From Polytrichum commune (taxonomy: Eukaryota; Streptophyta; Polytrichopsida; Polytrichales; Polytrichaceae): a DNA stretch of 64,000 nucleotides. Shown piece after piece: positions 1-17,022 of the stretch. Where the stretch lies: contig OX485807.1 in assembly GCA_950295325.1 (NCBI GenBank), positions 17,579,666 to 17,643,665 of the forward strand, read 5' to 3'. The translations under genes were made by a program, and so were the position numbers. The first letter of the stretch is position 1; each line of letters begins with the position of its first letter. Under the pieces are notes generated by a model, which was not told where the DNA came from, ran no database searches, and worked only from the letters and a program-made list of their open reading frames with translations.

Positions 1-1
1 T

Positions 2-2922
2 GTTGGCAAGGCGGTTACACGTGCCAAGGTGCATTTTAAAAGTGAGTCGAAGAAGATCTTACCAATTGCTGATCCTCAGAACACTCCTGCTTTTCTTGCC
101 GAAGTGAAGACTCATTATGAGTGTCGTGATGACGGTGTTGAGATGAAGTTAGAGAAGTTGTGGATGTTGGCTGTGTCTGCTATGGATCCTTCCATGAAGG
201 TACTTTGGCTTGAGCGCTGGAATCAGCCTCCAAGTCTTCGGGTGCAACTGAAATTCCCCAAGCAAGGTTTCAACGATGACGCCTTTTACACTTGGTTGAA
301 TAAGGCAACATGGTGGGCTCAAGTATGTGATTCTCCACTTGCCCTCTTTGTTGAGTTCTCAAAAATTGTTTTTTTGCTTTTGAACTTTCATTGCTAGGCC
401 ATTGCAAATTTGTTATCTTCTTTGTTCATAATTCCTCTGTCGTGCTATGCAGTTGGCAGTGGGAGCACAAAAGCTTCTCGATGGTGTCCTGCGTGATCAA
501 AAGGCCACCATCAACTATCAACCTGATGGCCGGGATCCAATTCCAATTTTTTTTTATATTGAGCAGATTCGCATATCATTATGGGACACGGCATTCTTCC
601 GCGAATTCGCAGTGGAGAAATGAGTAAATAAGAACAACACTATCGACAAGCAGTACTTGTTCAAGCCAGCATTACACCGTGTCCTGTACCGGTACTTCAA
701 ATATGTCCTCTTCCCCTCCAAGGCTATCTCTAGATCCCCTCCCTTCTTTGTTAATTTCTTGGAGAAAGATAGTGAGGATTTCATGCTCACTGAGGGGATC
801 ATGAAATCATGGGATTCTGTGCACTGGGAGCGATGTGGGTGGTATCTTGACTGCCCAGCTTCGAAGGCCCCTTCGTTTGACATCGTTCTTCGAGACTCCA
901 TCCAACCACCTTCCCTTCGAACTGGGACTCCCTCGGATACCGTCGACACTCCGCTTGAGGTGCTTGCCAGTCAACGGCCGGCCTCAAAATCCAAGAGGCA
1001 ACCGAGGCAGAAGAAGGCTCCCGTTTCTGATCAAGTTCAGAGGGTCACTTCCCCGGTTGGGACGCCGCCCCTCTTCTCTGCACCAGATGCTGCACTTGCT
1101 TCAAGTGCATCTAGACTTCCTGCATCACCACCGAGTCCTTCAGTACTTCTAGCAGAGCCAATTACGAAGCGCCACAAAGTTGATGTCCCGGAGTCCAGTA
1201 CTGCCACCACGTTCTTGTCTCCCCCTAAGCGTCATCCCATGAAGGTGAAGGTTGTTGCATTGTCAACCGCATATACTTCTCAGCAACTTCTTGTGAATGA
1301 TTCTTTTGTTCGTATTGTGGAGGAGAAGACAATCACTGGAAAATTCAGCACCAACTACGAAGACATTGTTTACTTTCTGAACAAGGTCTTCCCCTAATTT
1401 TCCAATTCACTATAGCATTGCTTTCATTTTTTCAATGTCATGTTGTAGGTTGGTAGTTGGATTTTTGTGGCATTTTTTCAATGTCATGTTATAGGTTTGG
1501 TAGTTGGATTTTTGTGGCATTTTCTCAATGTCAAGTTCTAGCTCGGAACTCCCAGGACTTATATTCCTCTCCGGTTTAGGTTGGCACTGGACGCCACTTC
1601 TACTTTGATGGCAAACTCATTGAGAAACCTGCAGTGGACTTGCTTATTGCTGAGTACCCTGACGGGCAGAGAGTTCCTGGAGTTTCTAATCCCCCGTCTC
1701 AGATCCCACCTTGGAATGAGTACTCCGATACTTTTCTTAAAGTGACCATGGGATTTGCATATTCCTACTTGCATGACGATGGAGCCTTCATTCTTTTCTA
1801 CCCCGACAGTCCCATGGTTCGCAAGGAGATTTCATCATTTTTCAAGAATTACAAGATGAAGGTTCTTGACGAGTGGACCATCATCAATTATTTGCACCTT
1901 GCCAATCCCCTCGTGCCAGCCAAAAATGTTTGTTTCTTGTCCTTCTCTCTTTCCTACTATTTAAACTAAGTTTTTTCTTCTATTCCGAATTTTCTTCTTA
2001 AGACTTAGCTTATTATTTGATGTGCCTTTGCAGACTTTGAAGTTCAAGGCTATTCTTATAGTCAGATCTGTCCTTACTTCTGAGGCTAGGCAGCCAAAGA
2101 TCCTCACGATCAAACCAGACCCTTCAGTCCCTCAGGTGGACTTAGCATGTGATGATGTCCTCTTCAATCCTGTCACATCCGAGACCCAGCTGATTCGTAA
2201 AAGCGATGGTTCGCCATGGCGAGGCCCGAAGGAGAAATCAGATGTTCTCATGAAGCTCTTTGTGCATGGATTATCTCCTCCAGATGGTATTGTCGCCGAC
2301 CTAACCGCTTCCACAGGTACCTCATACCCACTTCTCTTTCCATTTTTACTTTTAATTTTCATACCATGTTTCATGTCCTAATTTCTCCCATTTCTCCAGG
2401 AGCTACTATTTGCGCAGCCCGTGCATGTAATCGCCACATTCTGGCTTTAGAAAGCGACTCTATGCTCTTTTCTGAAGTCCTTAAACCCCTGGCAGTTCCA
2501 CCTCCAAATGCTTCGACTTTCTCTATTGCGGGCGACCTGAGTGATGATGACGAGGCCATTCCAGATGCCCCTTTGCACGATATATGTGAGTAAGTCCACG
2601 CCTTCGTTGGTTGATATTTTTTTCTATTTATCTCTTACTTGTAATCCATCCTTTGTTCATATCTAAATCTTGCTCTGAACATGGCAGTTTGACAAATTCA
2701 GGGAGACCGCTACGAACTCCACCTTCAACTTGGTACTTTCCATCGCCGCCCCCAAGTCCTCGTGGCTTACCTGTATATGCTGAAGCCATGGCCTTGGCGT
2801 ATGCCCATGGTAGCTCTGGGAATTCGACATCCTTCTTCACTCCTAAGAATCATGTTGACCCTCGAGTTCTACGCTACTTTGATTTAGAAGCAGTGTCGAG
2901 CCCTCTATGTAGCAGTGATTGA
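2..2922 (+). CDS. Methyltransferase-like protein (beta-class amino-MTase layout), 5' partial, one in-frame stop
   Basis: Exons 2-322, 453-1385, 1580-1927, 2034-2316, 2400-2585 and 2702-2922 join in frame through GT-AG junctions to 763 residues, with the start outside the window. The N-terminal 250 residues are unrecognised. About 255-360 is a basic Ser/Pro-rich linker. From about 419 the order is: a motif IV-like [11 protein letters not shown] (437-447), a strand ending [11 protein letters not shown], then [16 protein letters not shown] (621-636) and HILALESD. This matches the circular permutation of beta-class N6/N4 amino-methyltransferases (PF01555 type): motif IV first, the SAM-binding DPFxGSGT-like motif last. 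The usual DPPY/SPPY is AEYP here and DPF is DLT, so catalysis is doubtful. A single TGA at 621-623 interrupts exon 2 while the frame continues on both sides: a recent disabling mutation, a sequence error or an unrecognised intron. The gene faces the MULE transposase tail to tail and may belong to the same element. An AATAAA lies at 2995-3000. Confidence 0.6.
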
Positions 2923-3581
2923 AGTAATGGCGACCTTCTTGATCATACAAAGTATCTTGAGCTCCCAAGAATTGTCACGGATATAGGCCCCTTTAATAAA
3001 AATTGTGTTCTAAAACTTTCAAGTTTTAAGTGAAAACCGCGGTCATAGAGCTCAAAAGTTCTCAAATTCTTGCTCTAGTCCTGATTATAAGGCTTTATTT
3101 TCAATACAAAATTTCTAAAAACTGTGGAAGTTATCGCTCACCGCTCACCGCTCACAGAATAGCATTCCTCCTGTTTGGTACGCTTTCTTCGACTCCGATT
3201 GCCCGAGGCATCATCCCCTTGGTGGACACCACGGATGTCCGGCCTCCTTCGTCGACCATGACTACCCATGGACTGCTCGCCGCGTGCCCTTAAAGGGACG
3301 GGAACCCTAAGGAACACATACAATGCAACAACAAACAGGAAAAGTAACAGCCAATCTATAACTCCATTGACAACAATCTGCACTACGAGGAACATGCTTG
3401 CGGTACAACAAGAGGATAGGCGAAATGTGAAGAACTACGATGGCGTTGGACTTATATAGGACCGGATCCCCCCTGGCATAAGAATGAGTCCCGTCAGACC
3501 AAGAGTATGGCTGACGTTTTGGGTTTAGGGTGAGGGTTTAGGGTTTAGGCGATGACGACGGGATGGATATAGATATCGCAC
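2923..3581. other. Spacer between the two convergent transposon-like genes
   Basis: This is the shared 3' space of the methyltransferase-like gene and the MULE transposase. It has an AATAAA at 2995-3000, three GCTCACC repeats near 3135-3160 and a telomere-like run at 3518-3549. An 85-codon minus-strand frame (3395-3138, ATG) starts with a hydrophobic stretch and ends Arg-rich. I do not recognise it and cannot say that it is expressed. Confidence 0.5.
3518..3549 (+). repeat. Short interstitial telomere-like (TTTAGGG) run
   Basis: Three to four slightly imperfect units of the plant telomere repeat TTTAGGG sit 33 bases beyond the stop codon of the MULE transposase gene. A related AAACCCTAG box is upstream of the same gene at 7361-7369. 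The run is too short to mark a former chromosome end. It may be part of the element's terminal region. Confidence 0.7.
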
Positions 3582-6500
3582 CTATAGCCTCCGGGACACT
3601 GGATTCCAGGGGCGTTCGAGGAAATCTTTTCGACGTCCCAATTTGAATCCTTGTCCATCCACAACTGGGTGGAACACTGGAGAGCCGGCCATCGGATGGA
3701 CTGAACCAGATTGGATCTCCGCTTTCATCCTTCTAAGACGACCTAGAGTTTGATTAAACTCAGTGACCAAGTGCTCCATCATAACGGTATCCCCTGCCAC
3801 CTCTTCCGCTAATAGAATCACTTGATTCTGTAATGTTTCGGGTAAATCCATAGCCCTATGCCGGCTGGGGGTGGGTCTCGGGGCAGTTGCTGGAGTAACC
3901 GTCTCACTAGGTGGAGGGGGTTGCTCACGCCAAGGAGTCAGCAACTGTTGTAAACCGCCATTGACATTTCCAGCTAGACGGCCGCAATATCGAGCGATGG
4001 TTCCTTCTGCGATTTCGGGATTCATCATCATGACGACCTTAACATGATGCTTACATATGTTGCCCCGTTGAGCCCAGACACAGTTGCACACACCCCACTC
4101 TGACCCCGGATTGTGCACTGTGTAACGTAAGTGTCGATGCTCAGTGGAGGTGACTAATGCAGTGTCACCGTCTATTACAGGCAGTGTCACGTCCTCGTCT
4201 GGAATTGCTCTTGCCTTCAAAATAGACTCCACAACGCAGTCTTGCATCTTCTTGTTGTCCACAAATCCCTTCTCTTTCCGGAGATCCTTATACCAGCAGT
4301 GATCGAGTACGTCTTCGGTCAACGCGGTAATACACCAGTCCACCCTCCGCCCTGTCATTCTGCTCCTCTCTGATTTTAATATCGATTTTGCAAAACCGTG
4401 GTACCCTTCGATTGCCGCATTAGTATCCTGGCCACAGTAACTCAAATTACGAAAACCCACTACCCACATGTGAACTTTGTCAATCCATTGAGTCCTGACG
4501 TAATCCCAGAAATCTACCTCACCCGGATATTTTTTTGCTAACTCTTCGATACGATGTTGTGCCCATGCCTTGCCCTCCTCTCCATGCGGTGATGATCGGT
4601 CGTACATCAACATTCCAAGCTCTTTCAAAATGGCTGCTCTCCGAGCCAAATTCGGGATCTTGTAGCAAGAGTTTTTCTGCCAAGCTCGCTGCACATGCCA
4701 TAAGCAGAGGAAAACCGCAGTTCCAGGCCACGTTTCACTGCCGGTATATAAAGGAGCACCGTTAGCCGTGAGTACACAAAGAGCAATGTACTGCATGTCG
4801 ATAAAATAATAACAACCAACCAGTGTCACAAAGTACAGACAGTGATGCAACATATATTTAATTGTAGTATCGAAAGAAGAAGATGGTCCAATTAGTGTTC
4901 GAGAATTTACTTAATAGCGTTGATCTCTCCCTGTGCGCAGTCTACGATGAATTCTGATGGCTTCCAGTCGGGCTCCTCCTTGGTCAATCTTTCGTTCAAG
5001 GCTTTCATCCAAGGTGTTAAGTCAGGCTGGGCACATCTTGATGTAAGGACGAAGGCCACCGGTACTCCGTTGTGCCAGTCATCAAAAACCATGAGTGTGT
5101 ATAGAGGGAACTGCTTGGCCATTAGATGTGCACGTCAGTGTCACAAAGTAAAGGTGACACTGACACATGTATATTGCGGTAAGACATGTCACATTCACAA
5201 GAAATAGAAAGCCGGGCACATAGACACAACAACGAAGGGCAGCAACTAAGCACAATAGGTTAGAGACAATACCTTCTTGTCATTGGTTCCAAACGTAGCG
5301 TCAACCGATATCCCACCCCGATGTCCGTGCTTGAGCATCATTTGCTTCTGCCATTCCGTCTGAATCCCAATGGTGAAGGGCATATTCTTGCCCGTCAACT
5401 CTCCCTGAACCTTAACCGGATTCTTCTGATTTGAATCACTGTAATAAAATACCTTCTCGGGGTTCCGCTGAACCCACATCCTCACACTCTGAGCATCGTT
5501 TTTGTGCAACATGTAGGTTTCCTGGGCTAACTTGCCTGAAATGTTGCGTATGTCCTTTGTAGTCAGAAGTAGATCCCGGGTAATATCCTTACCCTCTGCT
5601 CGATACTTCTTTAGGATGTCGAGATGTTTCCTCATAATCTGATTTGGAGTGTCCTTCCTCCTGAGGCAGTCCTCGACGAAGGCCCTGATCTCCGGAGAGA
5701 GGTGCGCCGAAAAAGCGCTACGGTCTCCAAGCTTCATACCTCCATGCACAACTAGACCATCCGAATTAACGTGCTTTTCCTGAATGATTGAAATCTCCGA
5801 CACGTGCGGCAAGTACAGCAGTGTCTTCACTGTGAACTGAGCTCTACACCCCCTCTTTATAGACTGGCCCCATTTCTTCTTCGAATCCCTTTGTATTTTC
5901 GGCTTCATCATCACGCTCGTTCCTTCGATTGTCCCGCTCCGTACTGGAAAGGATGCCTCGATTTCCACAGGATTCAAAACCTCGCCGGGACCCTCTTCAG
6001 GTGGACAATCTCCAATGACAGTGTCACAGACGGGTGGTAAAGGCATTCCAGTGTCACCGCCATACCCGTTCCTCGCATGTTTTGCTGAAGGTAACAGACC
6101 AAAATTTCCTTCCGTAACACTGGACGAAGGTAACAGACCACAATCGGCATTGCATTCAACTTTCTTCTTTCTAGGAGCCCTTTTCTTGACGGCCTTAGCA
6201 GGGGGTGGGGGGGAGTCCATTACCATAGGAACTTCATTCAGGTCGGGGATGACATTGGTACATCCATGTGGACCTGTGTCGTCAGCTGCCTCCGACTGAG
6301 TTGCAGGTGTGGCCTTCTTTTGCGGCCCCCGTTTCTTTGGGACAGTAATTGGGTCAGCCACCATCCAGTCCATAGGTTCGATGATAGATTCTCCCGTTTT
6401 TGGTTTAAAGGTACGCGGCGGCTTTCTACCCTGACCTCCTTGGCTGCGGTTTGCCCGTGCCTTTCTTGTTGGGGCAAGAGTGTTACCTTCTTGCACTGTC

Positions 6501-7298
6501 TCCATAAGTACTTGCTTTTTCCTCAGCTTCCGCAGTAGACTTTCCGTGATTGGCTTTACGATCCTCGAGAAATCCTTAGGACCATACTCGCACTTGTATC
6601 TGCAATAGAAAAAATGAAGACAGTGTTCCACATGTTTAACGGCAGCATTCAGTTTGTATTGGTGGAACCCTAAGTTCCAATGTCGACCAAACCCTATATT
6701 ACCTACAGACAGTGGGTGTGGACACATTACACGATGAATTGTTGCCCCTAATGAACCCCACCATTGCACAACCCTAACCGTAAACCCTAGGATGCACCGA
6801 AATTCACCTTCAGAATATGCGAATAGTACGCAACACTGGTATGGAGTGACACAAGATGACTTACCTGACAAAGTTCATGGCAGTTCGGGGTCCGTCTCTA
6901 GACTGGTTCGGTTTCCGATTCTCCTTGTTGGGGCGAAACCTACACTGTGATCCCTCCCTTCCGCATTGCATTCCTTCGATGAAATCTTGTATTCTACAGG
7001 ATGGAACGTAACACTGCTGCACTAAATGGGCCTTCTTGTGTTCCCCTCGAGGTGGACGGTACTCCAACTCCCACTTCAAGTCGCGAGGACCGAACACGCC
7101 TTCAGGTGGATTCTGGACAAAGTCCTCGATCGCCTTGAGCTGAAGCACATGCAGGTCGAATGCACTCAAATCGACCTCCATGTCCACTGCAGGAAGATCG
7201 TGACTCTTCTCACCAAGCGGGCTCTCATTGGGCTCCATCGCTGCTTCGGAATTCAGTCGTTGGCGAAAACAAGGCACATTGGCAACGCACTGCAACAT
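3582..7298 (-). CDS. Mutator-like element (MULE) transposase with SWIM zinc finger, apparently intact
   Basis: Exons 7298-6865, 6599-5273, 5110-4911 and 4737-3582 join to exactly 1039 codons, with donors GTAAGT, GTATTG and GTAAAT and CAG acceptors, so the frame is intact across three introns (265, 162 and 173 bp). The start may instead be Met21 (7238). The N-terminus has a Cys-rich patch (about 97-125) and Lys/Arg/Pro-rich AT-hook-like stretches in the middle. The catalytic core is the MULE DDE fold: SVDATFGTN (Asp578), then VFDDWHNGVP, FIVDCAQGE (Asp644), the CLWH pair typical of MULEs (Cys665, His668), and DTNAAIEGYHG (Glu764). A SWIM finger CxCx8CxH follows (Cys871, Cys873, Cys882, His884). 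Together these predict cut-and-paste transposition in the nucleus. A domesticated FAR1-like role is possible, but the motif-dense surroundings favour a transposon. I could not identify terminal inverted repeats. Confidence 0.92.
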
Positions 7299-7502
7299 TT
7301 GGAGTCGGGGGGATTGGATTCGTATTGCGCGTGTGCAAAGAAGAAAGGTGAACTATGGCGAAACCCTAGATCGAGAAAACAGAAAATACAGTGACATTGC
7401 AAATCTGTTACGCCGACGTTCGTTGTCCGTAATGTTTTGCAGATCGGGCAGTGCGGGGCGAAGTTTTCATCGGGCAGTGTCACATTGTGATGGCAGTGTT
7501 AC
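4160..7502. promoter_or_regulatory. Cluster of CAGTGTYAC motifs through the MULE gene
   Basis: CAGTGTCAC occurs at 4160, 4182, 4821, 5136, 6019, 6049 and 7475, and inverted at 5154. CAGTGTTAC occurs at 7494 and inverted at 6114 and 7008. Chance predicts far less than one in this span. The sites lie in exons, introns and the 5' flank alike. Upstream variants (CAGTGTCTC, CAGTGTTTC, CAGTGCG) fill 7445-7565. They could be binding sites for an element-encoded protein. This is inferred only from density. Confidence 0.6.
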
Positions 7503-7700
7503 GTGTGCGGGCAGTGTCTCGCGAGGCGGGCGTCGTCCCGGCACAGTGTTTCGTGACAGTGCGAAATTACCCGGGCTCGGTTTTACGGGGACCGCGTGGG
7601 GGGGGGGGGGGAAATGGCGCAGCCGACGTGGACAGCCACGATGGCCACCGAGCCGCGTTATCCTACCCTACATGGGAAATAGCGTTCTCCCTTCCCACCT
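7299..7700 (-). promoter_or_regulatory. Putative 5' flank of the MULE transposase gene
   Basis: Sequence upstream of the transposase start, more GC-rich than its surroundings. It carries a telo-box (AAACCCTAG, 7361-7369), repeated GGGCAGTG-type words at 7446-7565 and a G tract near 7598-7611. The element end should be near here, but I found no partner for a terminal repeat in the window. Confidence 0.4.
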
Positions 7701-8213
7701 GACTTTAGCTAATAAAACTATAAGTTGGTTCTACCAAACTGGCCTTCACACCATCGACATTATCTAGTGTCGAGCCTAGTTGGCAAATGATGTGGCATGG
7801 CTTAAAAGTGGAGGTTCTAAGCTTCAAGCACCGACCCTCTCATCGGTTCTTAAACATGAGGCAAGAATATAGGAGGTTTAAAAGTGTCGCCTCCCACCCT
7901 TGTGATTTGTTGTTTTTTAGTCTTAGTTTGGAGGGCACGAGGAGTTTCATTAACAAAAACCGATGGTAAGATAGGTGAGTAGTAAGGCATTTGGGGATGG
8001 GACAAAAACTACCCAACATGTCATTGCTTGGTAGATCAAACAATGAACACGTGTGAAAGCTACTTAACTAAAACCTACTTGAAAATCTCCGGAGCAAGTT
8101 CTTGTAGGTGCATTGGGATAGTCGGATGCCTCCGCTATGACCGAGGGAGCTTTACCCGGGCTTTAGGAAATACTTTGGGTCTTAGCTAAAGTCAAGGGAG
8201 AATTGGGCATAAT

Positions 8214-14167: not shown

Positions 14168-15496
14168 ACCAGACGGGATGGGGAGTGTGGGGCCCAGCGC
14201 GAGCTATGGCGGAGGAGGAGAAGTCGTGGAGCGTATCGTCGGTGCGACGCCCGCTTTGCGGCCACGCCGGGCAGGCGGCAGCCTCCCTCCACGTAGCAGG
14301 CAGGCCCCTGTCAGTCCGGCTGCCGGCAAGCGGGCGAGATGCTCTCGCGCTCATCACCTCTCCAATCTATCCTGCGCCTGCTGCCAGAACGCTCTTGCGG
14401 CCGGGACCTGGAGTATCGCGCTTCTCATCAAATCACTCGCCCGCACGTCGGCAAGGTTCCAACGTCGGGGTTTCCCGGCTCAACTTTTGAACCACAGCCG
14501 GCCTCGAGCGCTAGCTGCTGCTGCTGCTGCTGCTGCTGTGATCGTTCGCAATCATCCGATACCGCCTACGCCCTTCACCGACTCAATTAGTAGTGGGCCT
14601 GCAGCTGGAATCTACCGGGTTTTCATCAACTTCGCTTTTCAAGTTGCCAACGTGCTGCTGCGGCTGCTAGAGGATTTGTAGTTGTGCGTGCGTGCTGATA
14701 AGTAGAGTTTTGGAGTGCTTTTTGTTGTCGTTGAGGTGAGGTTGTTGTGAGGTAGGTTCGCGTCTGAGTATGGAGGGAGGGCAGGTGGCGTTGAGGAGGA
14801 GTAGGAAGCAGGGTCGAGGATTACTGATGCAGCATCAAAAGGCGGCTCATCAGCATTGGATTGAGAATCGGGGATTCTTGATGAGGAATGGTGGAGAATT
14901 GGTGATCGGCCCTCGCTTATAGTGAAATGTGATGTGTGCCTGCCTGCCCGCCCGCCCTCCCTAATTCTTTCGCATGGGAGATTTTTGTACCTTGGAAGAT
15001 CGAATCCCGCTTTCCAGAGAGTACATGGATTGGAGGGGAATGTGTTGGTAATATTCCTTAGTCGTGACTCGGCAAGGGGATTCTTGGAGGTGAAGAGATT
15101 TTCTAACACATACTGGTACATATCCTGTGTCGACGGTGTTTAATATTTACCTTGGGAAGAAGAAGAAGTTAGCTTTCTTCGCTGGAGGATTTAGCGTTCT
15201 GCATTGTCTGATGTTGATGTTATCGGAAGAATGATGGTTTTTTCCAGTGAACCGGAGAGAAGAAGATCTCCAACATATGTTCCACAAACGCAGATTGACG
15301 GGGGCTTAAGCATGGTACAGCTCGTGTAATGTATGCATGTGAGGATGTGACCTACATCGCATTAAATAAGCGGAGCAAAGCATTGAACCGGAAATCAAAT
15401 CAACTCTAAAGTGCGTGACGGCTCATCGAAGTATCAAATCGAGAGGAGAAAGACAATTGGCCTCATCATCATCATCATCATCTTCATAATCATCAA
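14168..15496 (+). promoter_or_regulatory. GC-rich upstream region of the MIZ1 gene
   Basis: 14170-14500 is clearly richer in G+C and CpG than its surroundings, followed by a CTG microsatellite (14514-14538) and less biased sequence up to the MIZ1 start. I see no recognised protein. It may hold the promoter and a long 5' leader, perhaps with an untranslated exon. A CAT/ATC trinucleotide run (15463-15482) immediately precedes the start. Confidence 0.4.
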
Positions 15497-17022
15497 ATGG
15501 GAGCCTCGCGGTTGACGTTTGTGGAGAGCAGGAAGGTGCAGAGCTGCAGCAGTGTGAACAGCAGGAGGGCGCAGTCCACAGTGATGCAGCCTGCAACAGA
15601 CCACACCAACAACAAGAAGTCGAGTAGTACCACTCCCGGCAAGCCGAAGAAAGTGTCCTCCGTTCTTCGCTCCTTCTTCCACTTGCTGCCACCGTCCTTC
15701 TTGTCTTGCGGAGGAGCCGATTCGGCCTCGGATCATAACCGTCCCTCGCAAGGAAACCGTGTCATAGGTATGTCCAAATTTTTTGGAGGAATGCATCTTT
15801 GTGCCACATTTTCTGTCTGTCTGTCTGGTTCGTTCGTTCGTTCGTTCGTTCGTTTGTTGAGATCCATTAGCACCGGGTCCCTCTCCCATGCCAAGATGTA
15901 GGAAAAGGAAAGAAATACACAAGGGACCCGCGTCATGACAAAAGTGAAGCATTCCCTGGCCACATCATGGCTCAAGTGCGAACTTGTGATTGTGATTCAA
16001 TAGCATCAGTGCAAAGGAGAAGTCCTTTTCAAGAAGGTTGTCCTCTTATATACGTGCACACACAATCGCCGACCATTCTTTAACGGCTTAGTGGGGAAGG
16101 AGAAATCCTCTTGAAGTAGCAAGATTGACCTCTTATATTTGTGCACACTATAGTCTTCCATCTCTCAAAGCGTCTAAGTTTTGCGATGACGTCTAACCTA
16201 CTTGGCGATCGTGTTCCATTCTCAAGCATCTTATTGTCCCCGTAATGTTGTGGCGACTAACATGCTTGAAAGCCATTTCCCTTAATCGCCACCACCAACT
16301 ATCCACATGTTTTCTGGCCACATGGTTGAGGTGCAAACTTGGTATTGCACTAGCGCAAAGTAGAAGAAGTGCTCATGAAGAAGGTTGCCTCACTCGCAAG
16401 TGGCGCTTCCTTCCTGTGGTTCACATGGTTGAATCCACTGGCGAGCAATGAAAAATGGCTTTTTCCTCCATTTAAGCAATCCGCATTGCCTGCGCTTTGT
16501 TCGATGCCGTCTGCTGATGACTTACTCGTGATATCTGCAGGTACATTATATGGTCAGAGAAAAGGTCACGTGTTCCTGGCAATTCAAGATGATCCCAAGT
16601 GCTTCCCCCTCTTCATCCTGGAGCTCGCGACGCCCACCACTTCCCTGGTGAAGGAAATGGCGTCAGGGCTGGTTCGAATTGCGCTAGAGTGTGAGAAAGC
16701 ACCTGCAGGCGAAGGCAAGCTCCTGCTCCAGGAATCCACGTGGACCATGTTTTGCAACGGCCGGAAAAGAGGGTACGCATCTCGAAGGGAGTTCACCGAA
16801 ATCGACCGCTATATCCTCAACCTTGTACAAGCGGTGTCGATGGGGGCCGGCGTGTTGCCGATGGTGAATGGGTTTGAGGGCGAGCTTATGTACATGAGAG
16901 CTCAGTTCGATCGGGTGATCGCTTCAGGCGACTCGGAGTCGTTCTACATGATGAATCCGGATGGCAGTGAAGGGCCGGAACTCAGCATCTTCTTGATGCG
17001 CAAGGATTCAAGTTCGCTCTAA
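15497..17022 (+). CDS. MIZ1: MIZU-KUSSEI1-like (MIZ1/DUF617) protein
   Basis: Exons 15497-15767 and 16541-17022, joined GTCATAG|GTATGT...ATCTGCAG|GTACA, give 250 residues. The intron is 773 bp and carries a TTCG microsatellite (15829-15854). The short Ser-rich N-terminus leads to VLRSFFHLLPPSFLSC, and the MIZ domain starts at about 90. Family hallmarks are clear: GTLYGQRKGHV, LELATPTTSLVKEMASGLVR, IALECEK, WTMFCNGRKRGYA, LQAVSMGAGVLP-like, GELMYMRAQFDRV and FYMMNPDGSEGPELSIF. Length and layout match the family (about 230-290). Arabidopsis MIZ1 acts at the ER in root hydrotropism, but most members of this land-plant family are uncharacterised, so the exact role here is open. The symbol denotes the family, not orthology. 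The start is the first ATG of the exon. Confidence 0.93.

Follow-up and report, generated by a model that had tools for sequence, protein, structure and literature searches.

Two transposons meet where a methyltransferase-like gene converges on a MULE-like transposase gene in the moss Polytrichum commune

Does a methyltransferase-like (MT) gene that ends tail to tail with the transposase gene of a Mutator-like element (MULE) belong to that MULE? The question is raised by positions 2–7700 of a 64,000-nucleotide stretch of Polytrichum commune DNA (contig OX485807.1, positions 17,579,666 to 17,643,665 of the forward strand; hereafter, the window), in which two convergent multi-exon genes are located at 2–2922 (+) and 3582–7352 (−). 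Both genes, and the gap of 660 bp between them, are present as a first-pass annotation of the sequence had described; this annotation had regarded the MT gene as possible cargo of the MULE. It was found that window positions 2–7700 are the ends of two distinct transposons with a border at position 3170. The locus is a nest of two DNA transposons, of which the inner one represents a giant two-gene family in which the MT-like gene is probably a transposon accessory factor.

The inner giant element extends from C5:17558790 to window position 3170 (contigs are designated by C numbers and individual loci by L numbers), with its 3′ part at 1–3170 (+) and its left end found in L013. Its right terminal inverted repeat (TIR; 3131–3170) contains GCTCACC repeats; in the copy on contig C1, it matches the left end in inverted orientation over 47 bp at 94%, and the TIRs of the family are about 50 bp long. 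Immediately beyond lies the target duplication CTGTTTGGTA (3171–3180), which recurs to the left of C5:17558790 with 10/10 positions identical. When copies L002 and L004 were compared with a longer window, homology ended at 3155 and 3170, respectively, and the flanks past AGAATAGCATTCCTC diverged. A DNA search with window positions 1–3170, in which the best 40 of 140 candidates were scored, yielded 51 matches, with 93–98% identity for those of full length; since the query itself stops at 3170, this search cannot by itself reveal the border. Target duplications of 10 bp were found in all 12 copies analyzed, namely, the window element, the C1 copy, and ten others chosen for having both ends listed (nine identical at 10/10 and three at 9/10 positions); a stricter motif was used here, as a looser one had failed or misread 4 of 10 pairs at the same loci. 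Thus, the TIRs and target duplications show that the inner giant-element family is mobile. Free of N, the C1 copy measures 14,031 bp; for a copy on C3, the length is 13,763 bp, of which 5 kb are N.

The outer MULE extends from C5:17552113 to window position 7690 and has 270-bp TIRs and a 9-bp duplication, by which its right part was placed at 3181–7690 (−). The right TIR (7421–7690, −) is 97% identical to C5:17552113–17552379, and the duplication CTTCCCACC (7691–7699) was read by eye from both flanks. The borders of the inner element and its 10-bp duplication lie inside the outer MULE; therefore, the inner element was inserted into the MULE. Extending the sequence leftward in search of a terminal repeat and duplication, as the first-pass annotation had proposed, did yield both for the outer MULE, but it also yielded the separate pair of the inner element. 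The MT gene is, consequently, not cargo of the neighboring MULE, as its element terminates at 3170, where it has a separate TIR and a 10-bp duplication free of mismatches. It should also be noted that the segment at 7689–7737, just beyond the outer MULE, is 88–92% identical to 17 listed places in the genome.

Which transposase accompanies the MT gene elsewhere in the genome was examined in lists of protein-level matches. These lists are lower bounds, comprising at least 148 MT places, at least 150 transposase places, and at least 136 places of MULE relatives (1,333 MT candidates with the best 150 scored and 169 matches; 1,767 transposase candidates with the best 150 scored and 150 matches); the MT list was used without the C53 row and without the latter half of the copy at C7:35801799, and chance means were obtained from 200 rotations. 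Among the matches listed, 17 of the 148 MT places were within 15 kb of a transposase of the inner type (chance mean 1.7, maximum 8), and only 2 of the 148, one of which was the window itself, had a MULE relative within that distance (chance mean 1.4). The genome-wide co-occurrence of the MT and MULE genes that the cargo idea called for is, therefore, not in excess among these matches. At the DNA level, the window alone, out of 27 listed MT-element places, had a MULE match within 70 kb (27 MT and 43 MULE places were compared out of 51 and 52 matches, with second pieces and weak rows omitted). When the genome was scanned independently with PF01555, 83 matches were obtained at E-values up to 1, of which 80 were used in the pairing test (three on contigs C10 and C12 were dropped; 500 rotations). 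A listed transposase was located within 25 kb of 26 of these 80 matches (chance mean 1.7, maximum 8), 22 matches were divergent from such a transposase (chance 0.44, maximum 3), and none of the 80 was within 25 kb of a listed MULE relative. The view that the adjacent PF10551-type MULE carries the MT gene as its accessory draws on the tail-to-tail position of the two genes within one outer TIR pair; given these counts, the end of the inner element and its duplication at 3170–3180 between the two genes, and the loss of homology at that same border in L002 and L004, it is regarded as extremely improbable. The broader idea of an accessory gene held in that the MT-like gene is probably one of a transposon, but its carrier is a giant element of its own with a second transposase-like gene.

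In the window's own inner element, this second gene is located at C5:17561080, with a frame open for 890 codons. Among five MT loci of other subfamilies, for each of which 10 kb was fetched, a divergent transposase was found in three (L008, L011, and L012), with MT segments 36–64% identical, the transposase core 59–67% identical, and other transposase segments 26–56% identical. Conversely, five further transposase loci were fetched; two of them (L041/L042 and L038/L043) were followed farther toward the side where the MT gene was expected, and both had a divergent MT gene (27–49% identity; transposase cores 73% and 79%, respectively). Overall, identity between subfamilies was 27–64% for the MT protein and 59–79% for the transposase core, and the pair of a transposase-like and an MT-like gene was thus shown to recur in deeply diverged subfamilies. 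Meanwhile, a second related element (L003:105–3038) adjoins the truncated copy at C5:26.84 Mb, with DNA 63–70% identical on the transposase side and a transposase core identity of 78%, which suggests clustered or nested insertions.

What kind of transposase the inner element encodes may be judged from its conserved residues, its predicted fold, and the element's ends. Residues D319 and D385 were invariant across seven members of the family, and the strands and helices of the structural model follow an RNase H-like order, although at low confidence (predicted local distance difference test (pLDDT) 45). In a Foldseek search with this model, ISCth4, which we take to be an IS256-family transposase, held the top three places (best E-value = 0.036). 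In VIA, the same protein (PDB 6xgx) ranked first (Z = 8.4, 166 aligned residues, root-mean-square deviation 10.0), which is a weak match, as models that lack any clear counterpart often reach Z values near 8. MULE and IS256 transposases are related, and the target duplications of MULEs are 9–11 bp long; TIRs together with a duplication of this length, by which the MULE superfamily is recognized, are present in the inner element. The 10-bp duplications and the likeness to ISCth4 are therefore a pointer to the MULE/IS256 side, and the inner element is suggested to lean toward MULE/IS256, without being classed as a MULE. A CxC...CxH pattern was seen by eye in the transposase, and no Pfam SWIM match was obtained. 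The hhalign comparison with MULE proteins failed, as did its MULE-to-MULE control. A FERM_M match in one of the seven members (E-value = 0.0031) was taken as chance, and the 2,500-aa transposase frame of the C3 copies was, in the one examined, an artefact of 5,000 N.

The methyltransferase relationship of the MT gene, on which the first-pass annotation had staked its idea, is supported by profile searches. All six aligned MT members matched PF01555 at E-values up to 1 (best 3.6e-6); two other loci scored above the cut-off, namely, L070 (E-value = 1.1e-7, over profile positions 1–216, with motif IV before the S-adenosylmethionine (SAM) motif I) and L071 (E-value = 1.5e-8, in the SAM half). The joined tail of the window gene was below it (E-value = 3.1e-4, 21.2 bits, cut-off 26.7). 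A profile search of PDB sequences gave eight matches at E-values up to 0.1, all of them to methyltransferases, with DpnA at the top (3.4e-6) and CcrM and RsrI among the others. The alignment with DpnA places vDLiivdyPdG of motif IV against VDAIITDPPYN, this first part being weak when taken alone. Motif IV likewise precedes SAM motif I in the exons of the window, as in the beta-class layout proposed earlier. The loci L070 (C1:9660900–9663400) and L071 (C4:44111200–44113700) carry an intronless 577-aa MT relative that is repeated in the genome. Above-cut-off DNA methylases were also found on the small contigs C10 and C12, which probably represent bacterial DNA in the assembly. Twelve stretches of viral contigs fitted a pattern, but no relative of the MT domain was encoded in any of the 12.

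The catalytic tetrad of amino-methyltransferases follows the rule [DNS]PP[YFW] (DPPY), from which the motif IV of the window family, EYPDG, departs. Motif IV was matched in 18 of 20 sampled loci, with 12 sequences of the form [ED]YPDG, two QFPDG, and one each of DYPYG (L052), DYPNG (L053), and EYLDG (L068), and with one out of frame (L066); DPPY was found in none of the 18. Elsewhere, the motif reads HIPEG (L043), DIPYG (L070), and DIPDG (L071), the last two loci being closer to the canonical form. The SAM motif region (DLTASTG, DLTAGTG, or DLTCSTG) is retained in most members. The catalysis of the MT protein is, judging from these motifs, probably altered or lost. The ratio of nonsynonymous to synonymous substitution rates (dN/dS) was 0.07–0.22 in three pairs within one subfamily (L009, L010, and L012; 208 codons), from which it follows that the MT gene has been maintained, at least in this subfamily, despite the altered catalytic tetrad. 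Between subfamilies, synonymous sites were saturated or nearly so, and 0.23–0.33 of nonsynonymous sites differed.

The MT gene is unlikely to be a passenger that was captured once and is carried without function. Such a history would agree with the capture of genes by plant MULEs (PMC13317346) and with the stop codon in the window copy; against it stand the low dN/dS in one subfamily and the pairing kept in diverged subfamilies. Two other possibilities divide the evidence differently, and they are judged equally probable, each being possible but short of an even chance. The domain may be an active N6-adenine or N4-cytosine methyltransferase with the element as its substrate, a role that has been suggested for the algal proteins that combine ParB and MT domains. 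The conserved SAM motif region in most members, the aromatic residue at the fourth position of the motif in a few copies (DIPYG in L070 and DYPYG in L052), the purifying selection, and the algal precedent (PMC12477816) would all be in keeping with an enzyme, whereas the replacement of the Y of DPPY by D or E in most members, the variable first residue (E, D, Q, or H), and the fact that the window family matches PF01555 mainly in the SAM half argue otherwise. Alternatively, a catalytically dead protein with the MT fold may bind the DNA of the element and block or read host methylation, in the manner of VANC of VANDAL elements. An altered motif IV in an otherwise conserved protein would be expected of it, and VANC provides a precedent for anti-silencing by MULEs (PMC13317346), but the DIPYG and DYPYG copies keep activity possible.

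The upstream exons of the MT gene encode a region of the form IPLCRM..LPVVRP...(helix)...FYV...VWDGNHRLQAW. The motif and order of this WDGNHR region presumably resemble those of ParB/Srx domains, and it is termed ParB-like here on its motif and position. This reading was favored because the pair of domains fits what has been published on the accessory proteins of algae. A Foldseek search with a model of the region placed PadC first, without significance (E-value = 3.9), and the search of PDB profiles gave no support for a ParB identity. A genome scan with PF02195 gave matches on the small contigs C10, C12, and C23 only, and none on this domain of the element. The ParB_N matches on these three contigs were above the cut-off and are probably due to bacterial contamination of the assembly.

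Several of the results weigh against the proposed explanation of a giant two-gene family with an MT-like accessory factor. As for the pairing, 20 listed MT places have a transposase within 25 kb, and the nearest transposase was divergent in just 11 of them; no transposase was found within the 10 kb fetched at two of the five MT loci of other subfamilies (L009 and L010). As for the transposase, no transposase family of Pfam matched it at E-values up to 10 (PF10551, in particular, in none of the seven members), and its model has the low pLDDT given above. As for the ParB-like region, the Pfam search gave no ParB match, the model was poor (pLDDT 45), no solved structure reached Z = 2 with it, and the ParB-like phrog_1033 of PHROGs matched one of five members without significance (E-value = 0.11). 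Finally, because synonymous sites are saturated between subfamilies, the measurement of selection is confined to a single subfamily.

With these points taken into account, the accessory-factor reading may be formulated as follows. The ParB-like N-terminal region of the MT protein would load onto the element's own DNA, perhaps at the heptads of the TIRs or at the tandem repeats inside the element, and the C-terminal domain with the MT fold would bind SAM there. The accessory protein might then mark the element with N6-methyladenine (m6A) or N4-methylcytosine (m4C), or, given the altered motif IV, recognize or shield it, and the outcome could be that host silencing is blocked or that the transposase is guided. 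We infer ParB-like loading, SAM binding, and an effect on the methylation or transposition of the element from sequence features. Internal tandem repeats with a 117-bp period are found in the C1 copy (C1rc 15484–15979), the TIRs of which contain GTGAGCR heptads; the 117-bp repeats and the heptads are candidates for the sites at which the ParB-like part or the transposase binds.

In the window, the MT gene is represented by six exons on the plus strand, the borders of which were set by inspection of GT/AG sites. The first (2–322) encodes part of the middle region, with an open frame, a GT donor, and a counterpart in L008–L011. The second (453–1385) encodes further middle region and a linker and is interrupted by an in-frame stop at 621–623, which is absent in another copy (L034+L035), where the frame is open at that point. 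The third (1580–1927) carries the motif IV that stands in place of DxxxxDPPY, as placed by the motif register against DpnA. The fourth (2034–2316) encodes PWRGPKEK together with the first part of the SAM motif (VADLTAST), and the PF01555 match runs across the joined tail; the fifth (2400 to approximately 2590, its 3′ border being approximate) encodes the end of this motif and ALESD, the SAM-motif-like stretch being formed once exons 4 and 5 are joined. A putative last exon (approximately 2688–2922, open frame, acceptor by inspection) likewise has approximate borders. The 5′ part of the gene, including the ParB-like region, is unreadable here because 5,000 N precede the window.

The transposase-like exons of the outer MULE are open frames at 3582–4910, 4907–5134, 5246–6874, and 6861–7352 (−). 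What had been called a clear MULE transposase does resemble PF10551 (E-value = 2.8e-4), but at 21.7 bits, below the cut-off of 27.6. The left half of the outer MULE (L036, C5:17552000–17558700) contains zinc-finger-like frames, and its frame at 4779–5768 (+) matches the Ulp1 protease weakly and below the cut-off (E-value = 0.036); this Ulp1-like frame is probably the accessory gene of the outer MULE itself.

Transposons of brown, green, and red algae are reported to carry accessory proteins that combine ParB and methyltransferase domains, with no tested function given there (PMC12477816). Therefore, this kind of protein is already known, and the description of the system as undescribed was only partly right. 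About 14 NAC loci (28 exon matches) were counted in the genome of 408 Mb, which has seven large contigs; their presence implies a land plant, and their low number suggests a bryophyte, as bryophytes have few NAC genes. The literature search found no such gene shown in a land plant, most subscription papers and plant protein databases being outside that search. As far as searched, the new features are the land-plant host, the MULE-like carrier with 10-bp duplications, the pairing that persists in different subfamilies, and purifying selection on a gene with an altered catalytic motif. It is conceivable, if still doubtful, that an abundant giant-transposon lineage of land plants employs a ParB-like clamp with a rewired or dead adenine/N4-cytosine methyltransferase as an element-specific epigenetic self-mark or anti-silencing factor. 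Transposons with DNA-methylation-type proteins of their own illustrate a way in which selfish DNA may deal with silencing by its host, and the abundance of the paired family together with its altered motif makes the idea testable, through m6A or m4C, or a loss of cytosine methylation, at copies with an intact accessory gene.

Among the closest known systems are Sola1-1_Ec32 of Ectocarpus and the examples from green and red algae cited with it, likewise giant DNA transposons in which the second gene is on the strand opposite to the transposase and encodes an N4C/N6A methyltransferase domain of bacterial type along with a ParB-like part (PMC12477816). The inner element shares with this algal type an MT-domain gene opposite the transposase in a transposon of more than 10 kb. 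It differs, in a comparison made by description, in its land-plant host, its 10-bp duplications, its transposase leaning toward MULE/IS256, and a motif IV altered in most of the sampled loci; the ParB-like part of the moss element, moreover, is without profile confirmation. ISCth4 (PDB 6xgx), as the top structural match of a transposase model of low confidence, is a suggestive relative. VANDAL elements of Arabidopsis with VANC are similar in being MULE-type elements with an extra gene that acts on host methylation; they are described as non-TIR MULEs (PMC13317346), unlike the inner element, and this comparison is also one of descriptions. The MULEs that carry Ulp1 (Kaonashi/KIU; PMC13317346) are resembled by the left half of the outer MULE with its weak Ulp1 match (E-value = 0.036, below the cut-off), whereas the long TIRs of the outer MULE set it apart from them. 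If the proposed role of the MT protein is true, MULE-like elements would have a third means of counteracting silencing by the host, in addition to VANC and Ulp1.

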